Assembly (NCBI GenBank): GCA_028875125.1
Contig: JAPPGC010000086.1
Location: forward strand, 1 to 32,655
Direction: 5' to 3'
Length of the DNA stretch: 32,655 nucleotides
Source: Bacteroidota bacterium
Lineage (GTDB): Bacteria > Bacteroidota > Rhodothermia > Rhodothermales > Bin80
Shown here: positions 1 through 30,276 of the stretch, piece by piece
Numbering within the stretch: the first letter of the stretch is position 1
Layout: every line of letters begins with the position of its first letter
The notes under the pieces: generated by a model
The model's database searches: none
What the model saw: only the letters and a program-made list of their open reading frames with translations
What the model was told of the DNA's origin: nothing
Translations under genes and position numbers: made by a program

Positions 1-515
1 AAATAGGGGATAGGGAATCTCAGTAAAAAATCCACTACAATGTCGAACTTGCGTATATAGCGTACTTTGCCATCCCTGACGAGCAGGTCCAGAGCGGCAA
101 GGGTCTCTTCTATGGGCGTGTTAACATCATAGCGATGAATCTGATACAGATCAATCGTTTCAACGCCCAGTCTGCGCAGGCTGGCTTCGCACGACTGGAC
201 AATATTCTTCCTTGAGAGTCCTCCAGAATTGGGGGCATCCCGAAGGGGAAAGAACACTTTTGAGGCCAGCACAACTTCGTTCATGTTGGCGTAGCGCTTG
301 AGTGCGCGGTCTGTGATTTCCTCACTCACCCCATTGGAATAAATGTCGGCGGTATCAAAGAAATTGATACCGAGCTCAAGGGCGCGCCTGAAAAATGGCT
401 GAGAGGCCTCCTCTTCCAACAGCCAGGGCTGCCAGGATTGATCTCCGAATGACATGCATCCAAGCGCAAGGCGCGAAACGGTGAGGCCTGTATTTCCCAA
501 ACGGGTGTATTCCAT
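1..515 (-). pseudogene. Aldo/keto reductase (YajO-like), disrupted after about 154 residues
   Basis: Translation from the ATG at 515 gives a clear aldo/keto reductase N-terminus: MEYTRLGNTGLTVSRLALG, then GINFFDTADIYSNG (catalytic Asp and Tyr), LASKVFFP (catalytic Lys), SCEASLRRLGVETIDLYQIH (catalytic His) and TPIEETLAALDLLVRDGKVRYI. The wording resembles the YajO/YakC group of NADP-dependent reductases, usually 320-330 residues. After VRYI (position 54) the family expects G-(A/C)-S-N, but this frame continues RKFDIVVDFLLRFPIPY, which I cannot align to the family. The remaining half of the TIM barrel is therefore missing or lies beyond an insertion. The foreign sequence at 1-53 may be the end of an inserted element or an assembly junction. 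An active enzyme cannot be made from what is visible. Confidence 0.8.
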
Positions 516-766
516 GGTAGAGCCTAGAATAAGGTGGTAAGATCGTCGTGGGTGGAGGTCCAACTTAATGTAGAAAAAGAGGATCGAAGATCTGAGATTT
601 TCGAATTTTCTGCCATCTCTCCCGAAGAGGAGTTTCAAGTAGCGATAAAGGCGGAATCACGCCCAAAATCACTGCCACGCCAAATTGTATGGCGAACTTA
701 GGTTAGGTCCCCATCCAAAGACGCCACAATTTTAGGTCATAGCACATTCTGTGATGGAAGTTCAGA

Positions 767-1425
767 TTAGTGGCTGTGTCCGTGATGGGAGTGACTATCC
801 TTGCTTTCTGACGTATTGTGAGAATGTGGGCTTCCATGATGGCTTTCGTGAAAGACGACGTGCAATAAGGAACCAGCCACGAATGCCTGAAAGTAGCTGC
901 TGCCCACAAACTCATCGGCTAATATGCCAGAAAGAAAGAATCCGGTAGCAGTCGTCACCAATAGTCCTGCAATGCCGGCCATAGCGACGACCGTACCATA
1001 GCGAGGGTGCAAAATCCACCAGATCATAAGTCCCACGGCGAGGCGATGGATCGCTATGGGGAGTGTGGTGATTGGCTGATCCGTGTTCAGGCTAGCGCCT
1101 TCTAATAGGGCATGCAGAAAAAACCCAAGAAATCCTGCAACGATGGATAGTATTTCAGTTTTTTTGCAATACCGTGGGAGATATGTTCGACTGAAATAGG
1201 TATCAGAAGCCCTAACGCCATGGCTCCCACGAGAGACATAATGCTAATCGGTTTCCAACCGTCATGCGCAATCTGATGCCCGAAAACCTGAATCAAAACT
1301 AACAGGGGGACCACCACATACATACTTCGATCAAAGGCACGTGTAAGCTTGGGTTGGTCATGTAGTGCCGGGTACAGGAGTGCTCCTATCACTGGTGCAC
1401 CTAGAGCGTAGAGAAGAGGGTCCAT
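767..1425 (-). pseudogene. ZIP-like metal permease, split by a -1 frameshift at an A7 run
   Basis: Two adjacent frames form one membrane protein of about 219 residues. The first (from ATG 1425) encodes 107 residues with several hydrophobic segments, ending ...EHISHGIAKK before running out of frame to a TAG at 1102. The second frame continues in register after the A7 run at 1159-1165 with TEILSIVAGFLGFFLHALLEGASL, then further membrane segments and a His-rich tail ending HSHHGHSH (stop 767). HALLEG resembles the metal-binding HNxPEG of ZIP helix IV, AIHRLAVGL may match the helix V site, and LLHVVFHE suits the last helix. A ZIP-family importer is likely but not certain. The break sits exactly on A-AAA-AAA read as codons AAA-AAA, a slippery heptamer, so recoding or transcriptional slippage could rescue it. 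A one-base deletion or a sequencing error is equally possible. Confidence 0.7.
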
Positions 1426-1455
1426 TCTAGCAGCCTGTGGATAAAGTCGAGGACT

Positions 1456-1665
1456 CTAGGAATTCAAGAAGGGGTGGTTCATATTTCGAGTAAGCGCAAT
1501 GTTCAGATTTGACGGTGCGAAAGCCATGGCTTCCGCAAATTTGAGCGGTTGACCAAGGCTATCTATTTCAGTTTGGGAGGACTGGATCTTTACCCGGCAA
1601 GAGTTCGAAATAGACCTTTTCTCCAAAATAGTTGAAGATCCGCCAAGTTTACGCTCTATGTTCAA
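1456..1665 (-). CDS. Small ORF of unknown function (69 codons, TTG start)
   Basis: This open frame begins with TTG 12 bases after the methyltransferase stop and ends 30 bases before the ZIP-like gene, on the same strand. It could belong to the same transcript. The product (MNIERKLGGSSTIL..., ending MNHPFLNS) has no signal peptide, membrane segment or motif that I recognise. The only ribosome-site hint is a GGGGAT about ten bases ahead. It may equally be an untranslated spacer. Confidence 0.2.
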   Translation of the reverse strand: MNIERKLGGSSTILEKRSISNSCRVKIQSSQTEIDSLGQPLKFAEAMAFAPSNLNIALTRNMNHPFLNS

Positions 1666-3260: not shown

Positions 3261-3608
3261 CTACACCGTTTCTACCGCACCATGATCATCGCAGTGGCCA
3301 TCGTGCTGGTGATGTAGATGGCCATCAACAAGATAATCAGTATGATCGCCATGCGGAACAGCTTCGTGCCCGCAACCGTCACCGTGTACGTGATCGCTAT
3401 CGTGTCCAGAGCAATCATGACCCGAAGTGCAATCGTCTGGATTAGCGTCCGATACCTCAATGGCATGCTCGTCTAAATGATCGCCGTGCGGGTGATGCAT
3501 ATGCCCGTCGTGTAGGTAATCTACGTGATCACCGTGCTTGATTGCTGTATGCCCGCAATCTTCGCCGTGATCGTGGTCAGCGTGATGGTGTGTGTGATGG
3601 TCAGACAT
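3261..3608 (-). CDS. His-rich metal-binding protein with internal duplication
   Basis: This 115-residue protein contains roughly 30 histidines plus many aspartates and four to five cysteines. It consists of two copies of one module of the form HGxxCGHxAxxHGDHxDYLxDGHxHHxHxxH, at about residues 14-47 and 76-108, joined by an acidic linker. There is no signal peptide or membrane segment, so it is probably cytoplasmic. Such His/Asp/Cys modules are found beside zinc transporters. Storage, buffering or delivery of Zn(II), or of Ni/Co, is the likely role, inferred from composition and from the CDF exporter just upstream on the same strand. The ATG at 3608 is followed at once by the His-rich start MSDHHTHHHADHDH, which supports this start. 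Confidence 0.8.
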   Translation of the reverse strand: MSDHHTHHHADHDHGEDCGHTAIKHGDHVDYLHDGHMHHPHGDHLDEHAIEVSDANPDDCTSGHDCSGHDSDHVHGDGCGHEAVPHGDHTDYLVDGHLHHQHDGHCDDHGAVETV

Positions 3609-3768
3609 GATTAGTGGTTTGTCTTATTGGGTTAACTGGACTGGCACAACTGCCTCCGTGCAACAGTCTTGGAGCACGGTGTGTCTAATGTACAAAATTC
3701 AATCCATTCACGCAATAGCAAGTTTCAAGATACAAGCAATGCGTGGAGGGCGATAAGAATCCCTGACA

Positions 3769-4797
3769 TTACATTTTCGCAAGGGCTAACAGGTTATCCA
3801 CGTGATGATCCTCCGTACATCCGGTCAATTGTGTTTCAAGCTGGATAGTCAAATGTGCAATCCCATAGTCATCGCCGATGATTTTGCGTAAACTGCGAAG
3901 CATTTCGTCCCGCTTACCACCGTAGTCTGGATCAATCAGGATATGGGCCGTCAAAGCGTCGCTTCCTGGAGACAGGGTCCAGACATGAATATCGTGAATT
4001 AGTGCCACGCCTGGAAGTTCCTCTATCGCCCGACACATTTCGTGCACATCAACATGCTTTGGCACTCCCTCCAAGAGTACATGCACAACACGCTTTAGCA
4101 GCCCCCACGTACCCCACAAGATCAAGATGCTTAGTATAACGGTCACAACAAGGTCAGCCAATTGCCACCCGAATGCCCAGATCAAGATGCCCGAAATCAC
4201 GACTCCGACGGAGCCTAAGAGGTCCGCGATCACATGCTGATATGCGCCTTCCACATTTACACTATGACCGATTGATTTGTGCAGAATGACGGCTGCACCC
4301 ACATTTACCAAAAGCCCAACAAAGCCAACCGCCAACATGAGTCCCCCCTCAATCTCTGGGGGGGAGGACAAGCGCTGATAGGCTTGGTACAAGATTACCG
4401 CCACAATTAGCCAGAGTGTGAGCGCATTTGCCAAGGCCGCCAATATCTCAAACCTCTGAAAGCCGTACGTGTGTTTGGCCGTGGCGGTACGCTCTGCATA
4501 ATACATCGCTACCAGCGCAAGGCCGATGGAAGCAGCATCGGTGAGCATGTGCCCCGCATCCGCGATAAGGGCCAGGCTTCCAGAAATGATGCCCCCGACT
4601 ACTTCGACAAACATGTAGCCCGTTATGAGAAACAGGGCGTACTTCAAGTGTCGCTTGCTCGCACCCCGCAGGTCGTGTGTGTGGCCTCCTAATCCCCCAC
4701 CATGGCTGTGATCGTGGCCGCCATGGTCGTGGCTGTGATCGTGGCCGCCATGGTCGTGACTGTGATCGTGACTATGACTGCTTTGGTTCTTCGACAT
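3769..4797 (-). CDS. czcD: Cation diffusion facilitator (CzcD/ZitB-type Zn2+/Cd2+/Co2+ exporter)
   Basis: The 342-residue protein moves divalent metal out of the cytoplasm in exchange for protons. The N-terminal 42 residues are a His/Asp/Gly tail with a near-perfect repeated unit SHDHGGHDH, a likely metal-collecting region. Six membrane segments follow. The two HxxxD metal sites are present: H83/D87 in DAGHMLTD (helix 2) and H188/D192 in HVIADLLG (helix 5), the His-Asp combination of zinc-selective members. The C-terminal cytoplasmic domain includes HDIHVWTLSPG. The length matches the family. It is transcribed toward the His-rich gene, separated by 160 bp, and has a good promoter just upstream. 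The gene symbol rests on family resemblance. Confidence 0.93.
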   Translation of the reverse strand: MSKNQSSHSHDHSHDHGGHDHSHDHGGHDHSHGGGLGGHTHDLRGASKRHLKYALFLITGYMFVEVVGGIISGSLALIADAGHMLTDAASIGLALVAMYYAERTATAKHTYGFQRFEILAALANALTLWLIVAVILYQAYQRLSSPPEIEGGLMLAVGFVGLLVNVGAAVILHKSIGHSVNVEGAYQHVIADLLGSVGVVISGILIWAFGWQLADLVVTVILSILILWGTWGLLKRVVHVLLEGVPKHVDVHEMCRAIEELPGVALIHDIHVWTLSPGSDALTAHILIDPDYGGKRDEMLRSLRKIIGDDYGIAHLTIQLETQLTGCTEDHHVDNLLALAKM

Positions 4798-4827
4798 TCA
4801 GAGAGTATACGGAAAATAATTAAAGTA

Positions 4828-4856
4828 AAGGTATCACGGTTAATGCATTGTGTCAA
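4828..4856 (-). promoter_or_regulatory. Predicted sigma-70-type promoter of the CDF exporter gene
   Basis: On the minus strand TTGACA (4856-4851) is followed after 17 bases by TACCTT (4833-4828). The downstream bases make TACCTTTA, also close to the TAnnTTTG form used in Bacteroidota. The expected transcript start is about 20-25 bases before the ATG at 4797. No clear dyad operator overlaps it. Confidence 0.45.
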
Positions 4857-5220
4857 TATACTAGCCAGGACTAGTCACCCGACATCAGGCATTCAGCGTG
4901 TACGCTGTTTAGTGACACATATGCTTGGCTAATCGCTCGCGCAGCGGCTTGACTACGGGAAAGATACATAAATGAAATAAAGCGTTGGCGGCTCCAACAC
5001 GTCGTTAGTCGCCCCAAATCGGTGAAGTTCCGAATCCAGTTTTTCGGCTCTTAGCTTTAATGAGTAGGTAACCTGTTTTTGGAATCCCACGGGACAGAGT
5101 GTGTATTTAGATTGACTTGCTCAACTAGTCAGAACGAAATTACTTACTTGTCACGGGTTTGCTGGGCCTGGCATCATTGTGTTTTATTCTTGGTTGGAGT
5201 GAGAATGGATCATGGTTGGT
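4857..5220. other. Gene-free stretch between the CDF promoter and IS debris
   Basis: Both strands have frequent stops and no recognisable protein here. It may include the terminal part of the IS21-type element whose istB remnant begins at 5221, but I could not define an inverted-repeat end. Confidence 0.4.
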
Positions 5221-5686
5221 TCAATGCGTTATTTTGAAGGATCTGTGAGTCGGGTTCGCAAGGAGTTCCCTTGAGTTTGATGCGGTACACGGGTTGCACC
5301 AGTCTATCCAGAAGTGCCTCAGCAATCGTGGGATTCGCCATTGATTGATGTTAGTGTTCAACGGGCAATTGGCTGGCGACGGTCGTGGAGCGTTTTTGAA
5401 TCCGCTCATCCAGCTATTGGAAAAGATCTTCCCGCGGGGTGCATCAGGCTGATCAGTCCAATATCACCGTCACCAGTACGTCCACTTTGTTGAGCTTCTG
5501 TACAAGTTTTGGAAATGCCCATCAGCGCGGGCAATCCCCAATGTTTCGAGCAAGCGAGACAATCGGTCATAGCACGCATTAATGCCTTCCAGGCAGACTG
5601 TATGGGCCAGCGATACAGCCATTTAGCTTTTGCCCTTGTCTGTGAGACCTGTGATGATCACATTCAGATGACGACGAATCCAGCCG
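5221..5686 (-). pseudogene. IS21-family istB ATPase remnant (truncated, multiple stops)
   Basis: Reading the minus strand and allowing for stops and one frameshift (near 5520) gives an IstB-like sequence in the right order. GWIRRHLNVIITGLTDKGKS corresponds to the Walker A loop (usually GPTGVGKS), then MAVSLAHTVCLEG, YDRLSRLLETLGIARADG, FPKLVQKLNKVDVLV (Walker B strand), LDERIQKRSTTVASQLPVEH and NPTIAEALLDRLVQPVYRIK with LKG. At least five in-frame stops are present, including one replacing the expected Trp after PVEH. The normal protein has about 250 residues. The first ~90 are absent, and the homology starts abruptly at the end of the IS110 remnant. The partner gene istA is not in the window. 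Confidence 0.85.
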
Positions 5687-6316
5687 CTAGTAGGCTAATG
5701 GCTTGCCAGCACTTCTGCCGTAGCGAATGCCGAGTTTACAGTACTTCCATAGTCTCTGCTTTATGGCAAACCGGAGTGGTGTCTGGACAAACGTACCGAA
5801 TACGTACGCGCCTATAACGCCGATCTCAGGCAAATGATGGAACCGTTGAATCTCCGGACATTGTTCGCTCAGTTCAACCATGCTCGCATTGGCCTTTTTT
5901 CGCAGCTCCCCCGTTGCATCCAGCTGGCCATAGAAGTACGTAATGATTATTTACCGAGCTTTGGTCCAGAACCGATCCAGATAGAGCTCGCAATGCGCCT
6001 TGGTGAATACTTCGCTGCCACACACATCGACCATCCCCGCCTGGTGGAATTGCCTCGAATTAAGATGCCGATCTGGCATGATCTTTCCGAACACATAAAT
6101 GCCGTTGAAATGCAATCTTGAAGTCCGCTCGGCACTCTTGATTTGAGTGAAATACTACAACGAAATCCCGCAGTCGAAGTAGCGTTATCAAGTTTGGATC
6201 ATATTGGATGAGAGTTTGGCCGACTCGCTGGCGGTGTTTCGGCAATGTGAGCGTGTCTACACCGTCATGGTCCTCCAGAGCGCCAACACAGCAATGCACC
6301 TAAGCGTTATAAACAT
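5687..6316 (-). pseudogene. IS110-family transposase remnant (frameshifted, internally deleted)
   Basis: The best-preserved part, 5881-5687, reads VELSEQCPEIQRFHHLPEIG, then VIGAYVFGTFVQTPLRFAIK and QRLWKYCKLGIRYGRSAGKP. This is the C-terminal Transposase_20 domain of IS110 elements, with the helix-hairpin-helix-like PGIG motif drifted to PEIG. Upstream pieces in other frames fit the same protein: LLRLRDFVVVFHSNQECRAD with FKIAF, and FHQAGMVDVCGSEVFTKAHC followed by a stop. An N-terminal stub lies near the ATG at 6316 (MFITLRCIAVLAL, EDHDGVDTLTLP). Most of the DEDD catalytic domain is deleted. It ends exactly where istB homology starts, indicating nested or recombined insertion sequences. Confidence 0.75.
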
Positions 6317-6368
6317 CCGTCGCATCCAGTAGCTAGAGGGGAATACCGAGCTGGAGTTATTCTGTCAT

Positions 6369-6390
6369 AAAAAGGCCCCTGGTCCAAGGC
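6369..6390 (-). terminator. Possible rho-independent terminator of the czcCBA operon
   Basis: About 16 bases after the czcA stop, the minus strand has GCCTT-GGACCA-GGGGC (five pairs, two of them G-U) followed by C and TTTTT. The stem is weak, but its position right after the operon and the T-run support termination. Confidence 0.4.
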
Positions 6391-6405
6391 AGATTATGAA
6401 ATCGG

Positions 6406-9400
6406 CTATTGCGTTTGTGGACGGGGTTCGACGGCAAACCACTTGTACAGCGACGGCAGCACCAGCAGCGTCAGGATCGTCGAAGTAACCAGGCCGCCCA
6501 CGACGACAGTCGCGAGCGGACGCTGCACCTCCGAGCCTGTGCCGGTCGAAAACAGCAGTGGGATCAGCCCGAGCGCCGTCGTCAGAGCCGTCATCAGCAC
6601 CGGCCGCAGGCGCAAGAGAGCACCCTCGACCGACGCCTTGTCCAGCGGCACACCGTTACGTATAAGCTGGTTGAGATAGGTCACGAGCACCATCCCGTTT
6701 TCCAAGGCGATGCCGAAGAGCGCGATGAAGCCCACAGACGCAGGCACCGACAGGTTCTGCCCGGTGATGAACAGGGCCACGATGCCCCCGACAAGCGCCA
6801 GCGGAATATTGAGCACGATAAGCGTGGCGTTCCCCAGCGAGTTGAAGCTGCTGTAGAGCAAGAGGAAGATGATTAAGAGTGTGATCGGCACAACGAGGAG
6901 GAGTCGGCGGTTAGCCTCTTGCTGCAAGCGAAACTGCCCACCCCAAGTCGTGAAGTAGCCCGTTGGCAGATCCACTTCCTGTTGAATGACGCGCTGCGCC
7001 TCCTCGACGAACGAGCCGATGTCACGATCCTCGACGTTGAGTTGGATCGTGATGAAACGCTGGTTATTTTCCCGTGTTATCTGACGCGGCCCGACAATTT
7101 CATCCACGCTGGCCAGCTCGCCCAGTGGCACGAGGGCACCGTCTGGAGCCGGAATCAGGATGCTCTCGATCGCTCCTGGTGTCGAACGTGATTCCGGTGA
7201 GAAACGCGCATAGATGTCGAACCGGCGGATACCCTCGAAGATCTGCCCGGCCGTCGTGCCACCGACGGCCGTCTGGATCGTCCGCTGAACCTCCGCGACA
7301 TTGATGCCATATCTTGCGATGGCGGCCCGGTCTACGTGGATGCGCAGTTGGGGCATGCCAGTGATCTGGTCAGCCTGTACGTCAGTAGCCCCACGCACAC
7401 GCCGCACCGCGGTCGCGATCTCGTCCGCCTTACGCTTGAGTTGTCCAAGGTCGTCGCCGAAGAGTTTGATCGCCAGCTCGGCCCGGACACCTTCAAGCAG
7501 TTCATCGACGGTCATCTGTATCGGCTGCGTGAAGTTGGTCAAAACACCTGGGATTTCGCCAATCTCTTCGCGGATGGCCTCCAGCAGCCTTTCCTGACTG
7601 CGGAAACGCCATTCGTTTTCGGGGGCAAGGCCTAGGTACATCTCGGCGCTGTTGATGGGGTCGGTGTGCGCACCCACCTCGCCGCGCCCGATGCGGCTGA
7701 CAACGCTCCTTATCTCTGGAACCCGCATTAGACGCCGCTCTGCGCGCAGCGTCGTCTCGGTACTCTCACGCAGGGAGATCGACGGGGCCATCGTTAGACG
7801 CAGCACCAGTGTGCCCTCCTGCAGCGTCGGTGTGAACTCCGAGCCGAGGAAGGGAAAGATTACTGCTCCGATGATGAGCAACCCCCCGGCCAGCGCTATG
7901 GCCCGGCGGCGCTTCCGCACGAAGAAAACAACGATGGGCTGGTAGGTCCCCGTTAGCCACGCCATAACACGGTCAGCCAGGCTAGGATTGGCTACATTGA
8001 AACCGCCGTGTCGCTGCTGGTGACGCATGAGCAGGCTTGAGAGCACTGGAGCGACAAAAAGCGCGAAGAACAGGGAACCAAGCATAGCCAGCGCCACGGT
8101 ATAGGCCAGCGGGCGAAAGGTTTTGCCCTCGACGCCTTGCAGAGTGAAGAGCGGCAAGAAAACCACGACGATGATTGAGATTGCGAAGACGACGGGGCGC
8201 GACACCTCCGCGCAGGCTCGCGCCACCACGCGCATACGGGATTCGCCCGGTATGGCTTCACGCAGCATCCGGTCTACGTTCTCGACCATAACGATGGTAC
8301 CGTCGACCATCATACCGATCGCGATTGCTAAACCTCCAAGCGACATCAGGTTAGCCGAGATGCCGAACTGGTTCATCCAGATTGCCGCAAACAGTACCGA
8401 GAACGGGATGGCGAGAGCCACAACCACGCTCGGCCGGACGCTTCCCAGAAAGGCGAAGAGCACCAGCACCACAAGCAAGATGCCCTGCCATAGTGCGCTG
8501 GTCACGGTAGAGACTGCTGCCTCGACGAGTGTCTTCTGCTCGTAGTAAGGCACGATCCGTACTCCCTCCGGCAAGATTTCGTTGATCGCGCGGACCTTCT
8601 CCTCCACGTTTCCAATGACGGTCGAGGCATTCGTGCCGAAGAGCTTGATGACCATGCCGGAGACAACTTCTCCCGTGCCATTGCGCGTTTGCACGCCCCG
8701 CCTGATCGACCTACCGATCTCGATGCTGGCTAGGTCGCGGAGGTAGACCGGCGTGCCGTCGAAAGTCTTGATGACGATGTTCTCCAGGTCATCTGTCCCC
8801 GTGGCCAGCCCTACCGAGCGCACGATGAACTCCTCGTTGTTTTGCTCGATGAACTGTGCGCCGACGTTGAGGTTGTTAGCCTCAATAGTTTCGAGTACCT
8901 CGGTGACGGTCACGCCATATTGCAGGAGCGCACCCGGATCAACCACGACATGGAATTGCTTCTCGTGACCGCCAATGCCGAGCACCTCAGTCACCCCTGG
9001 AACCGCCTGAAGATTAGACTTGACGATCCAGTCCTGCATCGTCCGCAGTTCTTCGAGCGAGTACTGCCCGGTGGTGTCGTCGAGGTAGTAGAAAAGCACC
9101 AGCCCCATGCCCGTCGAGATCGGCCCCATCTCCGGCTCGCCGAGGCCCTCAGGAATTGCATCCCGTGCTTCCTGGAGCCGCTCACCCACAACCTGGCGCG
9201 CGAAGTAGATATCGGTGCCGTCCCTAAAGTAGACGTTGACCACAGATAGACCGAAGTTGGACACCGAACGGATCTGCTTGAGGCTCGGCAGTCCATTCAT
9301 TGCAGTCTCGATGGGATAGGTCACATACTGCTCGATCTCTTCAGGCGCCAGCCCTTCGGTGACCGTAAAGATCTGCACGAGCGAAGGCGACACGTCGGGA

Positions 9401-9513
9401 AAAGCGTCTACGGGGAGCCTCTGGTAGCTCAGCCAACCGGCCCCCATTACCAGTACAACCAGCGCAAGGACGAGTAGCCGGCTGCGCAGGAAAAAATCGA
9501 TGAGTCTGTTCAT
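6406..9513 (-). CDS. czcA: Heavy-metal RND efflux pump, inner-membrane subunit (CzcA/CusA family)
   Basis: This 1035-residue proton-driven antiporter is the core of a three-part pump that exports metal ions across both membranes. It has the RND layout: a membrane helix at residues 12-30, a large periplasmic loop opening RLPVDAFPDVS, helices 2-6 from about 335, a second periplasmic loop and six C-terminal helices. The helix IV signature is AIGMMVDGTIVMVEN, with D404 and E411 present but Ala (398) where Zn/Co/Cd-type CzcA has the first Asp of DFGxxxDGAxxxVEN. It also lacks the DAA...IEN form of copper/silver CusA. Metal choice is therefore open. It is last in a czcC-czcB-czcA operon, 17 bp after czcB. 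The window suggests export of surplus zinc or related divalent metals. Base composition is more GC-rich than in the flanking genes. Confidence 0.93.
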   Translation of the reverse strand: MNRLIDFFLRSRLLVLALVVLVMGAGWLSYQRLPVDAFPDVSPSLVQIFTVTEGLAPEEIEQYVTYPIETAMNGLPSLKQIRSVSNFGLSVVNVYFRDGTDIYFARQVVGERLQEARDAIPEGLGEPEMGPISTGMGLVLFYYLDDTTGQYSLEELRTMQDWIVKSNLQAVPGVTEVLGIGGHEKQFHVVVDPGALLQYGVTVTEVLETIEANNLNVGAQFIEQNNEEFIVRSVGLATGTDDLENIVIKTFDGTPVYLRDLASIEIGRSIRRGVQTRNGTGEVVSGMVIKLFGTNASTVIGNVEEKVRAINEILPEGVRIVPYYEQKTLVEAAVSTVTSALWQGILLVVLVLFAFLGSVRPSVVVALAIPFSVLFAAIWMNQFGISANLMSLGGLAIAIGMMVDGTIVMVENVDRMLREAIPGESRMRVVARACAEVSRPVVFAISIIVVVFLPLFTLQGVEGKTFRPLAYTVALAMLGSLFFALFVAPVLSSLLMRHQQRHGGFNVANPSLADRVMAWLTGTYQPIVVFFVRKRRRAIALAGGLLIIGAVIFPFLGSEFTPTLQEGTLVLRLTMAPSISLRESTETTLRAERRLMRVPEIRSVVSRIGRGEVGAHTDPINSAEMYLGLAPENEWRFRSQERLLEAIREEIGEIPGVLTNFTQPIQMTVDELLEGVRAELAIKLFGDDLGQLKRKADEIATAVRRVRGATDVQADQITGMPQLRIHVDRAAIARYGINVAEVQRTIQTAVGGTTAGQIFEGIRRFDIYARFSPESRSTPGAIESILIPAPDGALVPLGELASVDEIVGPRQITRENNQRFITIQLNVEDRDIGSFVEEAQRVIQQEVDLPTGYFTTWGGQFRLQQEANRRLLLVVPITLLIIFLLLYSSFNSLGNATLIVLNIPLALVGGIVALFITGQNLSVPASVGFIALFGIALENGMVLVTYLNQLIRNGVPLDKASVEGALLRLRPVLMTALTTALGLIPLLFSTGTGSEVQRPLATVVVGGLVTSTILTLLVLPSLYKWFAVEPRPQTQ

Positions 9514-9530
9514 TGCAATGCTTCCGTGCT

Positions 9531-10742
9531 CTAGTAACTGTGACCGTCGCTAAGTTCACCTTTTTCGAACTCGGCCTTGAGGGCAAAGCCGCCCCGGGCG
9601 ACGTAGAGCGCGCCTGGCTCAAGGCCCTGTGTGATCTCGGCCTGGGTCTCATTCTCCCTTCCTACCGTGACCGCCTGCGGCGCAAATCCTTCGTCGGTCT
9701 GAACGAAAACAACGGTCTGATCGTCCATCGTGATGAGTGCCGAACGGGGCACAATGAGAGGCACTTCAATGTCATCGACGGCAATGGAGCCGTTTACGAA
9801 GAGTCCGGGTTTCCAGCGTCCGTCTTCGTTGCCAAGCACGATGCGGGCGATGGCGGTGCGGGTCTCCTCACCGACGATGGGACGGACGTACTGGATCGTA
9901 CCCCGGTCACGAAGCTGCCCGCTGGTCGTGACGATATCCACTTGTTGTCCTTCACGGACGAGATCCAGGTCGTTTTGAAACACATTCAGGTCCACCCACA
10001 CCGTGCGCAGGTCGGCGATGGCGAAGGCCTCGGCGTCGGCACTTAGCGCCTCACCCTGGCTGATGTGCTTCTCAATGACCACGCCCGATAGCGACGCCAT
10101 CAGCTCATAATGCACCAGAGCATGCTCGTCCTGCTCAGGCAAGACTTCGATGTAGGCCTCGGAAAAGCCAAGCGCCAGCAACTTCTGCCGGGCCGAACGC
10201 AAGGCGATGCGCACCTCGGCCAGCGCCTGCCTCGCTTCGAGATACTCCTGCTCAGAGGAGATCTTCTTCTGATAGAGGGCTGATTCGCGCTCAAACGTAG
10301 CCTCGGCCAGTTCCAATCGCTCCAGTCCAGCCAAGTAGTCGGCCTTGATGTCGGCCAGGTCGCGGCTGTCAAGGACAGCCAGTACCTCGCCGGCACGGAC
10401 CACATCGCCGACCGACTTGTTGGTCGAGTGCACGAAGCCAGCAATGCGCGGCACGATGTGGGCGAAGCGGTCCTGATTTATCCTGACCTCGCCGGGAAAC
10501 ATCACGGCGACGGTGAGCGTGCCGGGAACCGCCGTTTCAACGTCAATCTCGAACTCTTCAAGTTCGTGGGCGGTGAGGTGAACGAACCCCTCCTCTTCAT
10601 GTCCATCATCAGCAATTCCGGCGTTGTTTGCTGGCGGGGAGTCACCGGAGCCGCAAGCGGTGAATATCATGGCAGCGACGAGCAGCAGACCAGAGAAAAG
10701 GGCGGCTCGCAGCACGCTTGGATATCTATGTAGTCTGTTCAT
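9531..10742 (-). CDS. czcB: Heavy-metal RND efflux periplasmic adaptor (CzcB family)
   Basis: This 403-residue membrane fusion protein links the CzcA pump to the outer-membrane channel. A lipobox-type signal ends at Cys30 (VAAMIFTAC-GSG), so it is probably a lipoprotein. Next come a short His/acid patch (DDGHEEEGFVHLTAHELEE), a barrel-sandwich half motif (VMFPGEVRINQDRFAHIVPR, then GFVHSTNKSVGDVVRAGEVL), a coiled-coil hairpin (about residues 125-195), the second lipoyl half (ASLSGVVIEKHISQGEALSA) and beta-barrel regions. The extended His-rich metal chaperone domain of some CzcB proteins is absent. It starts 14 bases after the czcC stop and precedes czcA, a classical operon order. Confidence 0.92.
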   Translation of the reverse strand: MNRLHRYPSVLRAALFSGLLLVAAMIFTACGSGDSPPANNAGIADDGHEEEGFVHLTAHELEEFEIDVETAVPGTLTVAVMFPGEVRINQDRFAHIVPRIAGFVHSTNKSVGDVVRAGEVLAVLDSRDLADIKADYLAGLERLELAEATFERESALYQKKISSEQEYLEARQALAEVRIALRSARQKLLALGFSEAYIEVLPEQDEHALVHYELMASLSGVVIEKHISQGEALSADAEAFAIADLRTVWVDLNVFQNDLDLVREGQQVDIVTTSGQLRDRGTIQYVRPIVGEETRTAIARIVLGNEDGRWKPGLFVNGSIAVDDIEVPLIVPRSALITMDDQTVVFVQTDEGFAPQAVTVGRENETQAEITQGLEPGALYVARGGFALKAEFEKGELSDGHSY

Positions 10743-10756
10743 GAGAGTCTATCGGA

Positions 10757-12127
10757 TTAAATGTCAGAAAGGGGGGTGCCGATGAGCCGCTCGACCTCGG
10801 CGCGGGCAATGTGGTAGACCGCCAGCGCGTCGATGTACTGGTTGGTCGTCTCGAAAAGCGTGCGCTGTGCATCAAGGAGCATGAGCAGGTCGAACTTGCC
10901 CTCCAAATAGCCTTCTTCTGTAGCCGTAAAGGCCTCCTGCGCGGCAGGCAAGACATCCTGCTGCAAGGTGTTGACCTCGGAGTAAGCACTCGCCAGTTGC
11001 CCATATGCTTCAGCGAGCATCCGGCGGGCCTTTACTTGCGCGGCCTGCTGCGCCTCCTCGCCTTGGCGGAGGCGGTATTTGGCTTCTCGCACAGTGCCCT
11101 GATTGCGGTCGAAGAGGGGCAATGGAATCGAGATCCCTGCTGCCAGCGCCGACTCGTGAAGCTCTCGGACTCGGCGAATGCCGACAATGAAAACAGGATC
11201 CGGTATGCCGCGTGCCCTTTCCAAAGCTACGCCTGCCCGGCGCAGGGCCATCTCGTCACGCCAACGGGCCACGTCTGGATTGCGTTCGATGAAGTTGCCA
11301 AGCCGCTGAGCGGGCGGCACCGCCTCGACAGCAGCCAGGTCGCCTGTTACCCGCTCAAAAGTCGGGGTGCTGCCGCCCCATGCGGCTGCCAGTCGGGTGC
11401 GCTTCGCAGCCAAGTCCCAGGTGGTGCGTTCGTAAGTAAGCCGGGTCGTCGAGAGGACGACCTGTGCGCGACGCTCTTCAAGAGCCGACACCTTGCCGGA
11501 TTCCACGCGTGCCGCGACGCTCTCATAAAACTGCTGTGCTTGAGCGAGCAGGCTGTCGGCCAGGGTCAGGCGCTCCTGGGCCGCAAGTACGCCAGTGAAG
11601 GCCTGCGCCGTCTTGGTGAGCACGTCGAGCCGTACCGTCTCGTAGTCCCAGCCAGCCAGATCGCGTTCGAAGACGGCCACGCGATGGCGGCGGTGGCGGT
11701 CGCCGCCGAGTTCAATGAGTTGGCTCAACCCGACTGTAGTTTCAGTCGAATGGAAGCCGCTTAGCGCTCTTGATCCGCCGAAGTCCTCCAGGTCAGTCAC
11801 GAATTCGGGATTGGGCCGTAATCCGGTCTGGAGTGTGCGCGCCTCGTGAGCGCGGACTTCCCACGCAAAGGCACGCAGATCCGGGTTGTGCAACAAGGCC
11901 AGTACTAGTGCTTCACGGAGAGAAAGTACATTGGAAGGAGCCGAATCCTCTGCATGGAGCGTGTCGCGAGTCGTGGGCAATACCGGCGGCTGGTAGGCGG
12001 GTAGAGTATTGCCGAGAGGGCGCGACTGCGGCCAGGCGGCGTCACGTGGCGTCGCGCAGCCTGTCAGAAAAAGCAAGAGCATCAGTGCCCACAGCGCCAG
12101 AAAGTATGGTTTCATAGGTTTTTTCAA
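10757..12127 (-). CDS. czcC: Outer-membrane efflux channel (CzcC/TolC family lipoprotein)
   Basis: The 456-residue outer-membrane factor supplies the exit duct of the metal pump. The signal peptide ends in a lipobox (LLFLTGC, Cys24). Two TolC-like halves follow, each mainly alpha-helical: SLREALVLALLHNPDLRAFA begins the first, and RLGNFIERNPDVARWRDEMA with the LERARGIPDPVFIVGIRR strand begins the second. The conserved LPLFDRNQG segment is also present. The family length is 400-480. It is first in the operon. The only upstream DNA is the wreck of a DNA methyltransferase gene, so its promoter must lie within that remnant, and no metal-responsive regulator gene is adjacent. An alternative start at Met5 is possible. 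Confidence 0.92.
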   Translation of the reverse strand: MKKPMKPYFLALWALMLLLFLTGCATPRDAAWPQSRPLGNTLPAYQPPVLPTTRDTLHAEDSAPSNVLSLREALVLALLHNPDLRAFAWEVRAHEARTLQTGLRPNPEFVTDLEDFGGSRALSGFHSTETTVGLSQLIELGGDRHRRHRVAVFERDLAGWDYETVRLDVLTKTAQAFTGVLAAQERLTLADSLLAQAQQFYESVAARVESGKVSALEERRAQVVLSTTRLTYERTTWDLAAKRTRLAAAWGGSTPTFERVTGDLAAVEAVPPAQRLGNFIERNPDVARWRDEMALRRAGVALERARGIPDPVFIVGIRRVRELHESALAAGISIPLPLFDRNQGTVREAKYRLRQGEEAQQAAQVKARRMLAEAYGQLASAYSEVNTLQQDVLPAAQEAFTATEEGYLEGKFDLLMLLDAQRTLFETTNQYIDALAVYHIARAEVERLIGTPLSDI

Positions 12128-12149: not shown

Positions 12150-13145
12150 CGCTGCCATACAAGTCGATTTGCATCCACAAAATGGAACAGGTATAAGGTC
12201 AACGTTGCTGCTGGATGCTGAACAATGCGACAAAGCAGAGCTGAAGGCTTTTGGATCGGATAAACTGTACATACTATTCCCAATGGAACTAGAATATCCA
12301 TCCAAGAATTTCCAGCCTGTTTTCCACTGTAATCACACTCATATTTTCGGTGTTGTAGATTTCCATTTTCTTTGATTACACAATTACCATTACCCTTCGC
12401 GAATTCTTTTAATAAGCGTTCCTTACTTAAACGCCATTTAGATGGCTGTAGATTTGTGACCCTCCGCCACTCATAGCACAGGTTGGGACGGGCGCCCATA
12501 TTTTGAGAACTCGAAATACGGGAGCTGTTGTCAAAATAACGTTGGCCCGTTACGTCAACAAGCGGAAATTGAACTAATCGTTCAGATTCAGTCATTGGTC
12601 CGTATGCACGCAATCCTGCTGCTATCCTGCATAAAACAAAATTGTATCTGTTGTATTGCCTCACGCTCTGGGGACATGCTGATTTCCTTTAGCCAAGATG
12701 GAATGACACTGGCAACAGATTTCATAGCGATATTTTCCCTGTCCAAATATGGCATCCATAACCAGTTTCAATAAATGAATCATGGAGGGATCACAATGTA
12801 AGAAAATGAATCCTGTTGACTTGAGCAATCGCTTCATCTCCAGAAGCCGGATAGTCATGTAGATGAGACTTGATTTATCACTATCCGTCATGGCGGCCAT
12901 GAGCATACGCCGTAGGTAAGAATGAGGTTTTTCGATCATTTCGAGCCATTCAATACCTACATCCAGTAACGTCCAAGTATCCTCAAAGCTGTCCCCCAGC
13001 CTTAATGCAGATGGGAGTGGTGTAGTCGGCCTTTCTGTTGAATGGCGGGTCAAGCCAGATCAGATCAACTGTGGCACCGTTCAAGCCACGCACGATGTAC
13101 AGATTATTATCTGTCCAGATCGTGTTAGAGAGACGATTCCGATTC
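12150..13145 (-). pseudogene. Beta-class site-specific DNA methyltransferase (Mod-like) remnant
   Basis: Pieces in several frames of the minus strand assemble in family order. IWTDNNLYIVRGLNGATVDL and IWLDPPFNRKADY contain catalytic motif IV, DPPF, at 13051-13040. After a frameshift come GDSFEDTWTLLDVGIEWLEM, SLIYMTIRLLEMKRLLKSTG, FIFLHCDPSMIHLLKLVMDA and IFGQGKYRYE. A TGA at about 12661 is followed in the same frame by GNTTDTILFYAG. A new frame then gives CYEWRRVTNLQPSKWRLSKE and YPIQKPSALL. A last shift gives PFCGCKSTCMAA, the SAM-binding motif I (normally DPFCGCGTT). Homology stops about 25 bases before the czcC start, so the C-terminus has been cut off. It is inactive through several independent lesions. 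No restriction partner is in the window apart from an Mrr fragment at the far right. Confidence 0.85.
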
Positions 13146-28224: not shown

Positions 28225-30276
28225 CTAAGCCGGTGCCCGCAGGGCGCGTATGGCTATGAACCAATCCAGTACGGCGGACTGATTCCGTACATAGTACCAG
28301 TATGCCTGTTCAGTTTCCTCAGTCGGGCGTCTGATATTTGGTCCGAGCATTTCGCTTACTGCAAATACCCCGGGTTGCAACTGCCATTCGGCAGGAGGGA
28401 TAAACCCGCTTCCCTCATGGAATCCGATTAGGGGGCGCTGTCCTCGCAGAACCGCACGCCACTGCCTGGTTCGTTCGCTCCTTCGCATCCACCGGGAGCG
28501 CGGGCCGGCCATCCTGGCAGCCAGCCAAACAACCGGATGAATGATTGCTCCAGCCAAAGCAGCCATGATGTCAGACACCCGGCGCGCAGCACGTGAGCGC
28601 AAGGCTCCGATCACTTCTTCGGCCTCAAGCAGGGGTGGTTTACCCAGTTTTTCAATGGACGTTTTGCCGATCATGTGGTCCTGCCCGGCATCAACGATAT
28701 GCGTTTGCACGGGTAGTCCGGCAAGCTGCTGCATTAGTGCAAATATTTTCTTGTTCGTCAGACTCGCGGACGCAAAAATTATGGACTCAATATTATGTAC
28801 GCGTACAATGTCACGCAACTGATCGTAATCACCAAAATGGGGCAGCGTGGATGACACGTTGGGTGTACCGTTTTGTGTTGCAATCCCGACTAGCGTGTAC
28901 TGTGGCATCTGTTGTACAGCTTGAAGGTCAGCATCGGAAAGGTTGCCTGCGATGAGCGTTCGGCGGTGCAGGCGCTGGCGGGTTCTGGGTATCAGGCGAA
29001 CCGCAGACAGTATCAGCATGCAGGCTGGCAGACAGGCGATCACAACCGCACGGGAGAATGCTATCTGTTTTACAAAGAATGATAGTGCAGCCAGCGCGGT
29101 GACTGCGGTTACCAGTCCCAAGAATACAAGTCCCAGATATGGCTTGCGTGCCCGGTACCCGCCCGAAGCAGCGATCACACCAGTAGTAATCAGGGCGAAC
29201 AGCGGGGACAGGCCCCAATAGAAGAGTGACATGAATTGCGTTCCGGTCTGGACGGACCGAAACAACCCCAACGCAGCTACCACCCCAACGCATAACACCC
29301 AGTCGCGCACAGCTGTATGGCGCAGCGTGTTTCCGAGCGCCGTTATCAGCCCACGTACAACGACGGCTAGATGTAATACCCATAGGAAGGCTTTAGGATA
29401 ATCCTCGCTCAAATGCTTTCTGGCAAAGCGAGCCATCGCGCCGTGGAAGAGGCGTACATACCTGAGATCACCTTTTTTTGTACTCTCACCTTTGTAGTGA
29501 ATGATCTGGGTTTCCGGTGTGTAATAAATCGCCCAGCCAGCTTTCTGGATCCGGTAACACAGATCCAGGTCTTCGCCGTACATGAAGAATTTCTCATCAA
29601 ACAGTCCGGCGCCTCCTGGGCCGGTCTCGTTATTGGCCGGTCCCGTAAGTGCAGTGCTTCGCACAAACATGCAAGAACCGCTTAACGCGTCAACTTTTGC
29701 CACTTCATTTTCAGGCAGGAATGTAAGGTTATAGCGACCAAAAGTCTTGCTCCGCGGAAATATTCGACTGAGTCCGATCATGCGGTAGAACGCAATTTCG
29801 GGGGTAGGGAATGATCGGCGACTCTCTAGGGCAAAGGTCCCGTCGGGGTTAAGGATACGGCATCCCATAGCCCCGGCATCTGGATGGGTATCCATAAATT
29901 TCGTAAGCACGCCTATCGTGTCTTCCTCAACAATTGTGTCCGGGTTCAGGATGAACAGATATTTCCCGCCTGCTATGCGTATCCCCTGATTGTTAGCGGC
30001 AGAAAACCCTACGTTCGAGCGGTTGGCAATGATCACGACTTCTGGAAACTCCTCACGCAACATACCGACTGATCCATCTACCGAGTTATTGTCAATCACA
30101 ATTATTTCGGCAGGAATGCCGGCCAATGATCGTTTGACGCTACGGAGGGCCTGGCGAAGGAGGTCCCTCACGTTATAATTAACGATGATCACCGATACCT
30201 TCAGAGGTTTGCTGGACGCGCCAGTGCCTGCTGCCGGTGAAAATGGCTGGTTACCGGTCATACCTCGAGAACCCAT
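28225..30276 (-). CDS. Glycosyltransferase family 2 fused to a Rossmann domain and degenerate sugar-phosphate transferase
   Basis: The 683-residue protein starts with a rhamnosyltransferase-like GT2 domain ([40 protein letters not shown] and the metal-binding NPDT), reaching to about residue 300. Several membrane segments follow (about 300-430). Residues 438-545 form a Rossmann domain ([14 protein letters not shown], ending near GKPPLLE) like that preceding the catalytic part of WbaP-type enzymes. Residues 563-683 track the catalytic domain in outline: [20 protein letters not shown] for the re-entrant helix, [12 protein letters not shown] for the VLKGDMSLVGPRP block, and [20 protein letters not shown] for the C-terminal helix. 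The KFRSM and DELPQ catalytic motifs are missing. It is therefore an active-looking glycosyltransferase with a pseudoenzyme tail, probably acting on lipid-linked surface glycans. Confidence 0.85.

Follow-up and report, generated by a model that had tools for sequence, protein, structure and literature searches.

The ZIP-like gene at positions 767 to 1425 of the window (the whole stretch of 32,655 nucleotides that was analysed, representing the entire contig C49 of a draft genome of 129 contigs) is divided between two reading frames. The split is best explained by a recent one-base contraction of a run of A residues, i.e., a real loss-of-function mutation in a redundant gene copy, and a probability of roughly 0.58 is assigned to this reading. 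The relevant features are the following:

3..638, minus strand: aldo/keto reductase ORF, the downstream neighbour, broken near window positions 48-55 by the end of a multicopy element
767..1165, minus strand: C-terminal part of the ZIP-like protein in the -1 frame, from TM4 to the His-rich tail, homologous to family residues 88-219
1102..1425, minus strand: zero-frame ORF of 107 amino acids, with ATG at 1425 and stop at 1102
1159..1165, minus strand: run of seven A's on the coding strand, read as GCA-AAA-AAA-CTG (T7 on the plus strand)

The zero-frame ORF is authentic up to approximately residue 89, covering the N-terminal part (TM1-TM3 according to the structural model of an orthologue), and then continues with 18 out-of-frame residues to the stop at 1102. 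In the -1 frame no stop occurs between 1243 and 767, and a good start codon is missing; the first candidate is a GTG at 1036, about 66 bases beyond the zero-frame stop. In the preliminary description, a zero frame reading GCA-AAA-AAA-CTG with a continuation in the -1 frame was reported, and its coordinates, heptamer and direction of shift were all found to be correct; likewise, the two parts unite, as proposed, with no residue gained or lost. Alignments with the closest homologues cover all 219 residues and pass the junction free of gaps; in comparison with the family, the split is thus a true change of frame rather than a pair of genes. An arrangement of two separate genes with coupled translation was also considered and rejected, since the homologues are one protein and the second frame offers its first start only at the distant GTG.

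Each of the nine other genomes in the genus contains a homologue of the joined protein, and so does most of the family; counting the genome of the window itself, 15 of 16 genomes have one. The homologues detected within the genus and family all lack a split at this place, including the syntenic orthologue in the related genome G008 and the second copy in the window's own genome; one homologue (L017) is cut short by the end of its contig. The nearest copies are L001/L022 (88% identity) and L021 (86%), and both orthologues read GCA AAA AAA ACT, i.e., eight A's (A8), as does the homologue L002. In L018 the last AAA of the run is replaced by AAG, and in L004 a CCC breaks up the run. The second copy in the own genome (L003, contig C93) is intact and 77% identical; its run also counts seven A's (A7), yet the frame is kept through a substitution that makes the following codon CCT. 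No other copy of the junction with a flexible run length was found in the viral_contigs search. The run of A's in the Ala-Lys-Lys-Thr codons was thus inherited, and, judged from the sequences, the window copy differs from it by one lost base. Since the closest copies carry A8 and the window A7, the heptamer is a remnant of the inherited A8 after the loss of one base, and recoding at a slippery heptamer, as put forward in the preliminary description, fails the comparison of run lengths. The contig harbouring L021 is labelled Candidatus Latescibacterota and holds a near copy of a Rhodothermales-like region (85% DNA identity over 1.9 kb); it is possibly mis-binned.

Concerning the identity of the protein, the joined sequence reached no Pfam or NCBIfam family. 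It stayed below the cut-off of the Pfam Zip family (PF02535), which had no match in the own genome and was touched by one of 16 family members at E=0.22, and a sequence profile of the family found no match in the PDB. The intact orthologue L001 was modelled with moderate confidence (pLDDT 76), and BbZIP of Bordetella bronchiseptica occupied the first eight VIA-align rows (Z 7.9-9.1, rmsd 4.5-5.2 over 174-198 residues; next unrelated row Z 6.4) and the first six Foldseek rows (probability 0.85-1.00, best E 0.016). TM4 contains an invariant His105 and an acidic residue four positions later (E/D109), giving H-x(3)-E-G (H105...E109-G110) in most members, and TM5 contains an invariant His127. ZIP proteins carry the motif H-N-x-P-E-G, which the TM4 pattern resembles, and the predicted fold matches BbZIP first and over its full length. 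However, identity to BbZIP is only 12-15%, the family falls below the Pfam cut-off, and His127 lacks the acidic residue four positions on that follows in the classical ZIP site. The model and motifs together support a divergent ZIP-like transporter family; the ZIP-like character proposed earlier is therefore supported by the fold match to BbZIP, whereas canonical membership of the Zip family is not. Because the break lies between TM3 and TM4, a truncated product would be devoid of both His-bearing helices, TM4 and TM5.

Some observations touch on the possible function of this uncharacterised family. In another family of the order, L015 (199-2175, minus strand) combines in one protein a ZIP-like domain with a permease that resembles the SO_0444 Cu/Zn efflux family but scores below its cut-off, and the adjoining ORF looks, by its sequence, like a DtxR/MntR-type regulator. 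L016 likewise has a long open frame (683 amino acids). The L015 fusion, and possibly L016 too, could hint at the function of the family. Furthermore, a metal-handling cluster at window positions 3261-12127 comprises a His-rich protein, a CDF transporter with a His-rich N-terminus, a CzcA/CzcB-type efflux pump and a TolC-like outer-membrane subunit; the CDF transporter, the His-rich protein and the CzcA-type RND pump with its adaptor suggest that the neighbourhood serves divalent-metal handling.

The window and G008 have a common gene order (aldo/keto reductase, ZIP-like gene, methyltransferase-like gene, His-rich gene and CDF transporter), with 85-90% DNA identity across the syntenic region. 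Among the 13 gaps of this alignment, only the one in the A-run (1159-1165) falls within coding DNA of a recognised gene, the remaining gaps being located between genes. The A8 and single open frame of the relatives, and the absence of any other indel in the coding DNA aligned to the nearest relative, are established, and a real loss of one base from A8 is the probable reading of them. These same facts fit the main rival explanation, namely that the organism possesses A8 and an intact gene and that one base was dropped from the contig during sequencing or assembly. The defect consists of a single-base homopolymer difference with nothing else wrong in the gene, and according to a survey of frame transitions, most unclustered cases validated by homologues are expected to be sequencing errors (PMC3711429). 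Against an error, the other coding seven-base runs of the window (4358-4364 and 29473-29479) are in frame and no other coding indel relative to G008 is present. Moreover, with a short-read assembly, errors at A8 would be uncommon. An assembly error is accordingly considered a serious but clearly less probable explanation than a real mutation. The last option of the preliminary description, a plain mutation or sequencing error, is thus the favoured one, given the uninterrupted homologues and the A8 of the closest copies.

Parsimony was used to place silent and replacement changes on the window branch, L001 and L021 serving as sister sequences and four copies as outgroups. The branch carries 12 silent and 6 replacement changes (4:2 in the N-terminal and 8:4 in the C-terminal half), and all six replacements are conservative (V20A, I79V, I96V, I129L, I147V, I191V). 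Pairwise dN/dS values versus L001 were 0.27 for the N-terminal and 0.18 for the C-terminal half. For a fully neutral branch, the observed ratio has P=0.0002, and a neutral share of the branch above about 25% is disfavoured. A second disabling change on the window branch was seen in neither half. An old pseudogene was rejected on the grounds of this strong constraint and the lack of further lesions. Purifying selection on both halves implies that the break is recent, or that it is not real, or that function was not abolished. Constraint up to the present is also what an assembly error predicts, and strong purifying selection is equally expected of a gene that is still functional.

In a further rival reading, leaky or functional bypass, a -1 slip of ribosomes on A_AAA_AAA or an A added by RNA polymerase would allow some full-length transporter to be made from a 'pseudo-pseudogene', and the exact frame geometry and the constraint on both halves agree with this. 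However, in Escherichia coli A_AAA_AAA shifts far less readily than A_AAA_AAG (PMC5009743), and frameshift-prone motifs without stimulators exceed the background of about 0.055% only 2.1-10x (PMC4066793). No Shine-Dalgarno-like word was present in the 30 nt upstream of the run, and the RNA after and around the run folded no better than shuffled sequences (z +0.82 and +0.49; pseudoknots are outside the model). A 9-bp inverted repeat flanking the run (TATTTCAGT / ACTGAAATA), which forms a hairpin when folded, was attributed to chance, as its fold was no better than that of shuffles and its upstream arm differs in L001 and L021. RNA-polymerase slippage is usually tied to runs of about nine A or T, the length from which many bacteria show selection against slippage, and eight A's behave as a non-slippery pattern that becomes slippage-prone at nine (PMC1088944). 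By this threshold the run of seven at the break is too short for programmed transcriptional slippage, which speaks against the earlier suggestion of polymerase slippage on A7. Leaky bypass is therefore judged improbable. Slightly less probable still is that A7 is fixed and ribosomal slippage on A_AAA_AAA makes enough transporter, leaving a functional gene of throttled expression with its twin supplying the rest.

Programmed frameshifting was also among the earlier proposals. For its conserved -1 form, with two proteins made by design, the A_AAA_AAA heptamer does stand in the correct phase. The criterion for such cases is a split common to homologues (PMC3711429), whereas here the homologues have one open frame across the site; furthermore, stimulators were lacking, as described above, and the truncated product would be without TM4-TM5. 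This explanation is hardly credible. The window's intact ORFs contain numerous in-frame X_XXY_YYZ heptamers (24 in 18 ORFs), including one A_AAA_AAA at 29473-29479 in a glycosyltransferase-like gene, so the heptamer alone is uninformative. In addition, an A8 losing any base in this phase leaves A_AAA_AAA behind, and the coincidence of heptamer and break hence follows from the mutation itself.

Phase variation of a metal transporter by switching between A7 and A8 would agree with the recurrence of seven to eight A's in the closest copies (L001, L021, L002 and L003). However, none of the other genomes compared is in an off state or shows a sign of switching, the A7 of L003 is in frame by substitution, and the runs of L018 and L004 are broken up. 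A run of seven to eight A's is also short for a contingency locus. Phase variation, likewise raised in the preliminary description, is consequently regarded as very unlikely.

Returning to the loss-of-function mutation, the following course of events is proposed. The Rhodothermales-like bacterium possesses two paralogous genes for ZIP-like membrane transporters, the window gene being one of them. Its lineage would have inherited the A8 encoding Ala-Lys-Lys-Thr and lost one base, most likely by replication slippage, yielding A7 and the frameshift. We infer that this change is recent and real. The product would end after three transmembrane helices, without the helices bearing the conserved metal-site histidines, and the loss may be tolerated because the intact copy on C93 remains, in a genome whose surroundings appear to be visited by insertion sequences. 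Any full-length protein arising from leaky slippage at A_AAA_AAA would be incidental and scarce.

The neighbouring aldo/keto reductase gene is also broken. The rest of it is located at the end of another contig (G000:C129:8323-8838), and the gene is intact in G008. The sequence at window positions 1-55 represents the end of a multicopy repeat, with many copies in the genome, mostly at contig ends; on C129, an inverted terminal sequence of partial similarity comes after the gene part. Based on the repeat and the split, this looks like the insertion of an insertion sequence. Two adjacent genes broken in one lineage and a spare intact ZIP-like copy elsewhere fit local decay, which is plausible. 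Short interspersed repeats located between genes flank the ZIP-like gene (window 1427-1530, 1544-1595 and 572-625) and are common to several genomes of the genus. Moreover, a short ORF at 12661-13053 reads by eye like a DNA methyltransferase fragment and is possibly another broken gene.

For annotation, the two ORFs belong together as one frameshifted gene, neither as two genes nor as a case of recoding. The contraction of A8 in this phase automatically yields a textbook slippery heptamer at the break, and such a heptamer at a frameshift is therefore weak evidence for recoding unless the split is common to homologues. Compared with programmed -1 frameshifting at A_AAA_AAN, as in E. coli dnaX and IS elements (PMC4066793), the window heptamer is of the same class and in the right phase. 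In contrast to those systems, the site is unconserved, the heptamer is weaker, a Shine-Dalgarno-like word and a downstream structure are missing, and two products from this gene would follow no sensible logic. A likeness also exists to homopolymer-tract frameshifts such as those of Blochmannia vafer (PMC3017870) and the GeneTack singletons (PMC3711429), in which a single-base poly(A) indel likewise interrupts a gene that is otherwise intact and constrained. They differ in that the run considered here comprises just seven to eight A's, making rescue by transcriptional slippage less likely. The split is thus probably a one-base homopolymer contraction of an ordinary kind, either real, which is more likely, or introduced by assembly, its main rival.
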